DNA of 64,000 nucleotides, taken from assembly GCF_038003525.1 (NCBI RefSeq), contig NZ_JBBOPI010000001.1:1107001-1171000 (forward strand), written 5' to 3'. The position numbers and the translations under genes are program-made. This DNA is from Solibacillus sp. FSL H8-0538. Its GTDB lineage: Bacteria; Bacillota; Bacilli; Bacillales_A; Planococcaceae. The notes beneath the pieces were generated by a model. The model was given only the letters and a program-made list of their open reading frames with translations, ran no database searches and was not told the DNA's origin. Positions 109 through 62,751 of this stretch are shown one piece after another; position 1 is the stretch's first letter, and each line of letters starts with the position of its first letter.

Positions 109-433
109 GAGAAATGGTTGCGCCAAGAGTGGAATTTTCACTTCTGGCGCAATTGTGCTACTCGACAAAGTATTGATTTAAAACATTATGTCTGTCGGCC
201 AAGTCCTATGAAGCAAAAAAAAGAGGGTGTCTCAATGCCCTTGTGAGACATCCTCTTCTTGTCATGTTATGGAATAAAATTGGTAATTTTTATAAAAATA
301 AAATTTAAATATAATAAAATTTAAGATATCGCAGAAAAACCGCCGTTTCGAACTTTTCAATACATATAAAATCAGCTATGATGGAACTTATAAAGTTATT
401 TTTACGTTTCTATGATGAGGGGACGGATTTGGG
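109..433. other. Intergenic region with two hairpins, ymfJ to ymfK
   Basis: No gene is visible here. There are two inverted repeats. One pairs TTGCGCCA (118-125) with TGGCGCAA (145-152). The other pairs 221-234 with 243-256 with a single G-T wobble. A very AT-rich stretch follows (about 275-330). The second hairpin could be a terminator, though its T-run is weak. A promoter for ymfK probably lies in the AT-rich part, but I cannot place its boxes. Confidence 0.5.
221..262 (+). terminator. Hairpin, possible terminator after ymfJ
   Basis: A 14-nt arm at 221-234 (AAGAGGGTGTCTCA) pairs with 243-256 (TGAGACATCCTCTT) with one G-T pair and an 8-nt loop. The following sequence is only moderately T-rich, so efficient termination is uncertain. 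Confidence 0.5.
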
Positions 434-24599: not shown

Positions 24600-24984
24600 T
24601 TTCCCTTTTGTATTAGGGCTTACTATTTTTTGGAATCTAAGCTGCTTAGCTACTGCAAATATTCCCGTATTAAGTGTTATGGCAAAAAGGATTAGTAGTC
24701 AATTATCTCTATTTCCAAGCAAAGAATTGGATTCGTTAACTACTAACAGATCAAGTATTTGGAGAAATCATTTAGTATTCTTTCAAGATCAACCTCTTAC
24801 AAGAATATTATTTGGAGGGAATTAATTACTTTACTGACTTTGATTTTAACTCGAAATTTGAAAACGTTTTCACCAGGCATATATTGATATGCTATTAACA
24901 TTTGGGTTAATAGGAACATTAGTAATGATATTATTTATTTTTATTGTTACATTAACTTATTCAAAAAAATATTATAAAACTAAT
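24600..24984 (+). pseudogene. Decayed O-antigen polymerase (wzy-like) remnant
   Basis: Pieces of a Wzy-type C-terminal half can be read in shifting plus-strand frames. The first runs from MAKRISSQLSLF to NRSSIWRNHLVFFQ and QPLTRILFGGN, then a stop. After a shift comes YFTDFDFNSKFENVFTRH, then after another shift DMLLTFGLIGTLVMILF. The order matches polymerases (Arg-rich loop, His, then a membrane helix). At least two frameshifts and a missing N-terminal half make it non-functional. The 122-bp mobile element is inserted at its 3' end, splitting off whatever followed. Confidence 0.6.
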
Positions 24985-25106
24985 GAGTCTTTACCAGAAC
25001 ATGTGCTTTACTTTAAAAGAAAGTGTACTACTTTATAAGCACATGGAACGGAAAGCGTCCGCCTGGAGTGGAATGTGCTGTCAAGTACTGATTTTGGTGT
25101 AGAGCC
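24985..25106 (+). mobile_element. 122-bp MITE-like element, copy 1 (TSD AAACTAAT)
   Basis: This copy is flanked by a perfect 8-bp direct repeat, AAACTAAT (24977-24984 and 25107-25114). Its ends are imperfect inverted repeats: GAGTCTTTACCAGAACA at the left and the complement of GATTTTGGTGTAGAGCC at the right. It differs from copy 3 at 5 positions by eye. It has no coding capacity. An inner GCACAT...ATGTGC pair could form a hairpin. It interrupts the polymerase remnant. Confidence 0.88.
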
Positions 25107-25351
25107 AAACTAATAATCAAGAATATTTGCTTTTAGTAATGACTGGACGACAATACCTTGAACATTTCAGCTGCTATGTAAGCTGTATCGATCTGCTGCT
25201 ATTTAAAAATAATAATTTTCTTGTGTGTAAATGAAAAACGAAAAGCCTTTGGTACTTCTATTCACAAAAAAATTTAAGACTTACTCATAATCCTTATCGG
25301 TAAATAATATAGTGGATGGACCTTGAGTAGTTCTTAAAGGGAGTGTAAGGA
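25107..25351. other. Gap before the family 2 glycosyltransferase gene
   Basis: After the mobile element's target repeat there is no recognisable gene. The sequence is AT-rich with stops in all frames. AAAGGGAG followed by AAGGA lies just upstream of the next ATG and is its ribosome site. Confidence 0.4.
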
Positions 25352-30310: not shown

Positions 30311-30328
30311 TTTACGGTACATCTAGAT

Positions 30329-30450
30329 GGGTCTTTACCAAAACATGTCCTTTACTTTAAAAGAAAGTGTATTACTTTATAGGCACATGGAACGGAAGGC
30401 GACCGCCTGGAGTGGAATGTGCTGTCAAGTTCAGATTTCGGTGTAGAGCC
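30329..30450 (+). mobile_element. 122-bp MITE-like element, copy 2 (TSD ATCTAGAT)
   Basis: This copy is bounded by a perfect 8-bp direct repeat, ATCTAGAT (30321-30328 and 30451-30458). It has the same ends and length as the other two copies and differs from copy 3 at about 7 positions. It is inserted between the second tandem ATP-grasp gene and the PLP-protein gene, leaving both intact. Confidence 0.9.
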
Positions 30451-30555
30451 ATCTAGATAGTTGAGAATTTTTTTTGTTCAATTATCTGATAATTGGAGTT
30501 TTATGATTTACAAAAAATTATACTTCGGATTTTTGATCTTCTTAGAGGTGATGTA

Positions 30556-40491: not shown

Positions 40492-41866
40492 GGTTCTATA
40501 CTAAATGTTGGGGTATTACTACAATTTGAGGGTAAAAAAAGACACGTAACACCCAAATGTCTTATACTTTAGTTGCTGAACAAAAGATAAGATGGGGGTT
40601 ACGTGTACATGCATTCTAACATAAGTTTACCAGGATTTGAAGACGCGATTATTTTAAAGACAGAGGTGCGTGGAGGGCAGTATCTGATTCATTTTGAAAT
40701 GCCCATAACGACGCAGGTTTGTCCAAACTGTGGAGAAGATACACGCCGTGTGCACGATTATCGTTGGACTAAGGTAAAACATTTAAAAATGGCAGAACGA
40801 ATGACGACTTTATTTTATCGTAAACGCCGTTATGCTTGTACGTGCGGGAAGCGTTTTGCGGAGAAGAATCAAGTTGTTTCGCCCTATCAACGCTATTCTA
40901 ATGAGTGGAATCAAATGGCTCAAATCCGTTCAGTGAAAGCCAAAACCTTCACTGAGATTGCGCACCAATATGGGGCATCGGTTAGTACCATCATTCGCAG
41001 ATTTGATCGGATTGTTCCTGGAAAAATTAAGGGAGAAACAGCCTTGCCAAAGGTGATTGCCATTGATGAATTCAAAGGCAATGCAGGTGGGGAAAAGTTT
41101 CAACTAATTATTGCCGATGCAGTGACAAAAGAACCTATTGATATTTTACCGGACCGGAAAAAAGAAACCATTAAAGCCTATTTGCGTGAGCATGGGGCAA
41201 ATGTTGAAATGGTCGTTATGGATATGAGTCATTCATTTAAAGCAGCAGTTCAAGAAGCGCTGGATAACCCAATTATCATTGCGGATCGCTTTCACTTTGT
41301 TCGCTATATTTATTGGGCAATCGATCGTGTTCGAGTACGTATTCAGAAGGAATGGAATGATTACGATCGTAAGAAAGTAAAGAAGAAGCGTCATGTATTT
41401 TTTAAGAAACCTAAGGATGTAACTGAGAAAGACCAGTGGTATTTAAAACGCTATTTCAGCTTTTCAGCAGAATTAAAATTGGCTTATCAGTTAAAGGAAC
41501 AGTTTCGAGAATGGTTTGAACTGGCGAAAGAGAATGGTGCAGAGAAACTAAAGGAAACGAAGGAATTCCTTCTGAAGTTTTATGAAGCGGTAGAAGAAGC
41601 TGATATTCCGGAGTTTCAACGCAGTGTGAAAACCCTTCAAAATTGGCAAACAGAAATCCTCAACTCTTTTACATTTAACTATTCAAATGGCTTCGTAGAA
41701 GGTTTAAATAATTTAACAAAAGTAATTAAACGCAATGCTTTTGGCTACCGTCGATTTGATCGATTACGCGCCAAAATTTTATTAACACATCAATACAAAA
41801 CAGTCGGCAATGAAATAGGATAAGGGTGGAGAATTGTATCCCCACCCCAACTATTGACAAAGAACC
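40492..41866 (+). mobile_element. Complete ISL3-family insertion sequence (1375 bp, TSD CAAAAATT)
   Basis: The element is bounded by a perfect 8-bp direct repeat, CAAAAATT (40484-40491 and 41867-41874), the duplication size typical of ISL3. The ends are imperfect inverted repeats: GGTTCTATACTAAATGTTGGGG at the left, and at the right the complement of CCCCAACTATTGACAAAGAACC. One full transposase gene fills most of it. It sits between ymdB and the first spoVS and disrupts no gene. The exact duplication suggests a fairly recent insertion. Confidence 0.93.
40609..41823 (+). CDS. ISL3-family transposase
   Basis: The protein of about 404 residues has an N-terminal zinc ribbon (CPNCGEDTRRVHDYRWTKVK plus ACTCGKRF). 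A helix-turn-helix stretch (AHQYGASVSTIIRRFD) follows, then a DDE nuclease core: Asp in AIDEFKGNAGGEKFQL, Asp in MDMSHSFKAAVQ and Glu in SNGFVEGLNNLTKVIKR. The frame is unbroken. Translation may start at the GTG at 40603 or the ATG at 40609; GGGGG at 40594-40598 fits the ATG slightly better. Confidence 0.93.
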   Translation: MHSNISLPGFEDAIILKTEVRGGQYLIHFEMPITTQVCPNCGEDTRRVHDYRWTKVKHLKMAERMTTLFYRKRRYACTCGKRFAEKNQVVSPYQRYSNEWNQMAQIRSVKAKTFTEIAHQYGASVSTIIRRFDRIVPGKIKGETALPKVIAIDEFKGNAGGEKFQLIIADAVTKEPIDILPDRKKETIKAYLREHGANVEMVVMDMSHSFKAAVQEALDNPIIIADRFHFVRYIYWAIDRVRVRIQKEWNDYDRKKVKKKRHVFFKKPKDVTEKDQWYLKRYFSFSAELKLAYQLKEQFREWFELAKENGAEKLKETKEFLLKFYEAVEEADIPEFQRSVKTLQNWQTEILNSFTFNYSNGFVEGLNNLTKVIKRNAFGYRRFDRLRAKILLTHQYKTVGNEIG

Positions 41867-62475: not shown

Positions 62476-62588
62476 TTGTGACCCCTCCGTAAAAAACTCA
62501 ATATGACAAGAGAATAGCAGTTTTATAGTTAGCCGTCAAAAGCAAATTGTTGACGGCTAGTATATAATTAATAAAGTAAAAGAAGTTT

Positions 62589-62710
62589 GGGTCTTTACCA
62601 AAACATGTCCTTTACTTTAAAAGAAAGTGCACTACTTTATAGGCACATGGAACGGAAAGCGTCCGCCTGGAGTGGAATGTGCTGTCAAGTACTGATTTTG
62701 GTGTAGAGCC
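62589..62710 (+). mobile_element. 122-bp MITE-like element, copy 3 (TSD AGAAGTTT)
   Basis: This copy has the same ends and the same length as copies 1 and 2. It is bounded by a perfect 8-bp direct repeat, AGAAGTTT (62581-62588 and 62711-62718). It lies in the divergent gap between the TRIC gene and ynbB, about 40 bp before the ynbB start, so it may affect the promoter of either gene. No coding capacity is seen. Confidence 0.92.
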
Positions 62711-62751
62711 AGAAGTTTATTGTTATTTTTAGATAGAATGGAGTTTTCATC

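Follow-up and report, generated by a model that had tools for sequence, protein, structure and literature searches.

The BOX and RUP repeats of pneumococcus are short, non-coding, structured and dispersed, and BOX is modular too. MITEs of the ISL3 type are likewise an already known kind of element. In the Bacillus cereus group, structured mobile repeats include bcr1, among others (Okstad et al. 2004, as cited in PMC2267715). A further point of reference is an RNA family, Bacillaceae-1 RNA (Rfam RF01690), which the table of Weinberg et al. (2010, PMC2864571) enters as certain to be an RNA and unlikely to be cis-regulatory. The 122-bp repeat described here touches each of these subjects. Very probably, it is an ISL3-type MITE of ISL3 descent, the short form of which has lost a structured core.

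The window, a stretch of 64,000 nucleotides from Solibacillus sp. FSL H8-0538, contains three copies of this element, all on the plus strand: copy 1 at 24985-25106, copy 2 at 30329-30450 and copy 3 at 62589-62710. As a first, sequence-only reading of the window had reported, each is exactly 122 bp long and lies within its own perfect 8-bp target duplication: AAACTAAT at 24977-24984 and 25107-25114; ATCTAGAT at 30321-30328 and 30451-30458; and AGAAGTTT at 62581-62588 and 62711-62718. The three duplications all differ from one another, and each is identical on both sides of its copy. Pairwise differences between the copies, given in that reading as 5-7 bases, were counted as 5, 7 and 10. The ends are the imperfect inverted repeats that had been noticed there, of ~28 bp (GGGTCTTTACCAAAACATGTGCTTTACTT against GGCTCTACACCAAAATCTGTACTTGACAG); in the family consensus, they agree as inverted repeats at 20 of 29 positions.

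Copy 1 lies between a FemAB-like gene and a glycosyltransferase gene, copy 2 between an ATP-grasp gene and an open reading frame without assignment, and copy 3 between a glycine-transporter-domain gene and a methionine gamma-lyase-family gene. One copy had been placed inside a dead polymerase gene. A decayed Wzy_C-like remnant adjoins copy 1 (24700-24984, plus strand; PF04932, E=1.8e-4, below the curated cut-off). This remnant has several stop codons upstream of the element and independent of it, so the Wzy-like gene was damaged by more than the insertion of copy 1.

When the whole genome (3.93 Mb in two contigs) was searched, as the sequence-only reading had proposed, 40 copies with common ends were recovered; copy positions are those given by searching. 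The family is short (121-311 bp) and without a transposase gene, and falls into length classes of 121-123, 143, 208, 268 and 307-311 bp: 16 copies of 121-123 bp, one of 143 bp, nine of 208 bp and 13 of 268-311 bp, with one further copy cut off where contig 2 ends. The three copies in the window are all of the short class. A plasmid search gave no match. At locus L037, a SAM riboswitch (RF00162, 72.6 bits; 110-230, minus strand) adjoins a 310-bp copy.

The claim that the copies had transposed holds across the genome. Perfect 8-bp duplications flank 22 of the 39 testable copies, with one mismatch in seven others and two in a further seven, giving 36 of 39 with a duplication at two or fewer mismatches. 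At shifted control positions, perfect 8-mer pairs occur by chance at a rate of 1.5e-5 per site. The target sites are AT-rich. The comparison with empty sites, also proposed in the sequence-only reading, was run on a relative's copy: the element in G097 (target duplication TAAAAATA) is missing from the orthologous site in G146, a site that is ~80% identical, has contiguous flanks and carries the target once. This result covers a related MITE of the same family in G097 rather than the window copies, the relatives searched for empty sites all lying outside the window's own genus. A second search, for a sister site of the G150 copy, found none.

These data also bear on whether the repeat could be a regulatory RNA dispersed by recombination, flanked by repeats through chance, and not a transposon. 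Such an origin would fit the conserved structure of the core in longer copies, which includes an Rfam RNA family, but it is contradicted by the 22 perfect duplications, by the end-for-end match to an autonomous ISL3 element described below and by the empty site in a relative. We regard it as extremely improbable.

That the element is non-coding, has transposed and depends on a transposase in trans was correctly read from the window, and the family depended on can now be named as ISL3. A pattern search in the genus of G147, taken as Lysinibacillus, found autonomous 1369-bp ISL3 elements with 8-bp duplications in G155 and G158. The transposase of this element has domains PF01610, PF14690 and PF13542 (NCBIfam NF033550); it is intact in the G158 copies, and the G155 copies are partly masked. 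In the family consensus, the left inverted repeat of the MITE (24985-25013, plus strand, in copy 1) matches the right end of the autonomous element at 25 of 29 positions, and the right inverted repeat (25078-25106, minus strand) matches its left end at 24 of 29. The window's genome itself holds a fossil of the matching element, a fragment of 53 codons with stops and an intact right end (79% amino-acid identity over 53 aa). Together, the end-for-end match and the fossil indicate that the MITE family descends from the 1369-bp ISL3 lineage and that its helper has decayed in this genome. A search of the same genome for an intact helper with matching ends found only this fossil. Such a helper is required for mobility today but not for descent, and the family is thus probably unable to move in this genome now.

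An intact ISL3-family insertion sequence of 1375 bp does lie in the window (40492-41866, plus strand; target duplication CAAAAATT; ends GGTTCTATACTAAATGTTGGGG). It is one of four intact copies in the genome, each with an 8-bp duplication. As a candidate helper of the MITE it was rejected on its different ends, which have 14-17 of 29 positions in common with those of the MITE and make it no obvious helper. The four copies differ from the matching element in their ends and show 29% amino-acid identity.

Movement of the MITE would have involved: supply of a transposase by a full-length ISL3 element; recognition by this transposase of the two ~28-bp ends; and insertion into AT-rich 8-bp targets, which became duplicated. 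The ends, the duplications, the empty site in a relative and the autonomous partner are observed, and catalysis of these steps by an ISL3 transposase is inferred.

The interior of the longer copies is structured. From 208 bp upwards, the copies contain a long, imperfect, rod-like hairpin, whose tip in copies of at least 268 bp is Bacillaceae-1 RNA, in either orientation. The four copies that were scored match the whole RF01690 model at 76-82 bits, against a gathering score of 35. In the window, including the 122-bp copies, RF01690 has no match; the short form lacks the module. Of 121 genomes of the taxonomic family, 88 contain RF01690, many with dozens of copies. Three carrier families, two of the ISL3 type and one apparently IS1182-derived, account for 22 of the 23 matches listed for this genome: ten are in family A (the MITE), nine in family B and three in family C, and the remaining match is in no recognised carrier. 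As the longer copies carry RF01690, Bacillaceae-1 RNA travels largely within mobile DNA in this genome. An automated scan of the regions around RF01690 in other genomes showed 8-bp duplications and inverted repeats at no more than control level, and the core-in-transposon claim is accordingly limited to the identified carriers in this genome and in a few of its relatives.

The pairing of the rod was assessed by aligning 23 cores, drawn from several genera and carriers, and shows strong covariation. Here, 84.0% of cells are paired, against 34-50% in slid versions, and 24 of 29 pairs have changed on both sides. Folding energy was one of the criteria by which the cores were chosen; this enriches for paired sequences but gives no advantage to compensatory changes. 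In family A, the outermost helix reads GCACAT/ATGTGC, and most other carriers have TTGATT/AATCAA there; the internal loop GACTCC / GGAAAGCG hardly varies. The alignment shows that pairing of the core is conserved, which is consistent with RNA function and with DNA-level repair of imperfect palindromes alike. A left-end promoter from which the hairpin would be transcribed was also considered; consensus scans of the element do not support it.

At least two further carriers of the same core are present in this genome. Family B, with ends GGGCACTGAAAAAGT, is a degenerate relic that retains a weak IS1182-like peptide, a 39-aa remnant whose best NCBIfam match is NF033551 (IS1182; E=0.025, far below the cut-off), with no Pfam support; the family is apparently derived from IS1182. 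Its tip alternates at the same place between Bacillaceae-1 RNA and a short hairpin, as in family A. About 27 degenerate copies with GGGCACTGAAAAAGT ends (loci L086, L089-L094, L097, L098 and L106-L123) have a terminator-like hairpin just within the left end, the core in most cases, and IS1182-like reading-frame remnants. The ends of family C resemble those of autonomous ISL3 elements of G030 and G145 (GGCTCATCACC). A family C element with Bacillaceae-1 RNA (locus L087, G000:C1:1171258-1171324) lies 258 bases past the window end and has a near-perfect 8-bp duplication, TGAACTTT/TGAATTTT. In G074, loci L100-L105 represent another carrier of the core, in several similar copies with ends like TCAGGCGTGTTGATTA. 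Conceivably, the core and its exchangeable tips, Bacillaceae-1 RNA among them, form a discrete unit that passes among unrelated Bacillaceae transposable elements and is retained by them, either because its structure serves the carriers or because the unit spreads by itself; this proposal is speculative, and we hold it with low confidence.

In long copies, the core is preceded by CGGAAGGCG and followed by CGGAAAGCG, which are imperfect direct repeats. Short copies have one fused repeat instead, in which the variable site is either A or G. In copy 1, this scar of the lost hairpin lies at 25045-25068 (plus strand; GGAACGGAAAGCG joined to TCCGCCTGGAG), and copies 2 and 3 have it at the same place within the element. 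From the scar and the repeats, we infer that the 122-bp form is the trimmed remainder of a longer element whose hairpin was lost between two GGAA(A/G)GCG repeats, by deletion between CGGAAGGCG and CGGAAAGCG.

The core hairpin was apparently lost several times, or short and long forms were exchanged between copies. Several origins or exchange are suggested by: the two junction states; the private variants beside the scar that short and long copies have in common (CCACC in L006 and L029, GGAAACG in L008 and L023, TACTG in L002 and L031); the tree of ends, weak and poorly resolved with one well-supported branch, on which length class is unclustered (13 changes against a shuffled mean of 12.5); and the short copies of the L. 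contaminans-like G147, which have other junctions. The pattern expected of repeated deletion could also arise from gene conversion between copies.

The orientation of the copies depends on their length. Contig 1 has dnaA at its start, and the sign of its GC skew changes between 1.85 and 1.95 Mb. Sixteen of 17 short copies (the 143-bp copy included) run with the replication fork, against 9 of 21 long copies (Fisher p=0.0015), an effect found post hoc in one genome with n=38. Slippage past the hairpin during replication is the route of core loss that we prefer, tentatively and with somewhat less than even confidence. Slippage would be favoured when the plus strand of the element is the lagging-strand template, which would explain the orientation of the short copies. 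The clean deletion scar is nearly absent elsewhere, with 2 matches in 31 other genomes, many of which have the core, and this weakens the case for a general slippage process. Single-strand folding energies calculated with DNA parameters are close (-40.3 vs -36.7) and also count against this route.

Alternatively, the 122-bp form might be a founder sub-family that transposed as such, with uniform orientation arising from insertion or selection bias. One founder would be expected to leave the same scar nearly confined to this genome, as is found, and most short copies do keep their own target duplication. The short copies nevertheless fall in both main end lineages and have private variants in common with different long copies; their junction states differ, and the tree of ends leaves them ungrouped. 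The genome's four own intact ISL3 copies follow no orientation rule, two running with the fork and two against it. We consider a single founder rather unlikely.

Orientation was also counted against neighbouring genes, taken as open reading frames of at least 100 codons rather than from curated annotation. Short copies are co-directional in 12 cases, opposed in none, divergent in four and convergent in none; for long copies the counts are 7, 6, 8 and 2. The notion that all copies face downstream genes was dropped, the full count showing this for short copies only. These counts speak for a rival reading in which selection, rather than the fork, keeps short copies in the sense orientation upstream of genes, a long hairpin in the 5' leader being harmful or a trimmed one useful. 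Because the rod folds on either strand (-91.3 and -79.0 kcal/mol as RNA), a simple cost of carrying a hairpin should hardly depend on the strand, and the consensus scan found no promoter within the element; we think such selection rather unlikely. Since most genes run with the fork, effects of the fork and of transcription are inseparable in these counts, including under the preferred slippage route.

In the open-access literature, searches by sequence string and by element type in Bacillus and Lysinibacillus found no earlier description of the element. What is without an earlier account found is that an Rfam RNA family is here mostly a transposable-element module, at the tip of a larger conserved structure. 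An orphan RNA family gains a genomic home, in that nearly all strong Bacillaceae-1 matches in this genome are parts of transposable elements, and its role becomes testable as a mobile-element question. The short and long copies also provide a natural test of orientation-dependent hairpin loss in a bacterial chromosome.

Compared with the known systems, the MITE has in common with ISL3 insertion sequences two distinct ends, matched end for end, and 8-bp AT-rich target duplications. It differs from the autonomous ISL3 element in lacking a transposase, in an interior that is a structured core or a deletion scar, and in its length of 121-311 bp. With bcr1, the MITE is alike in being short, non-coding, structured and dispersed, a likeness in kind only; the likeness to BOX and RUP of pneumococcus is of the same order. 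Bacillaceae-1 RNA differs here from its catalogued form: it forms one of the exchangeable tips on a larger conserved rod, occurs in both orientations and lies mostly inside transposable elements.
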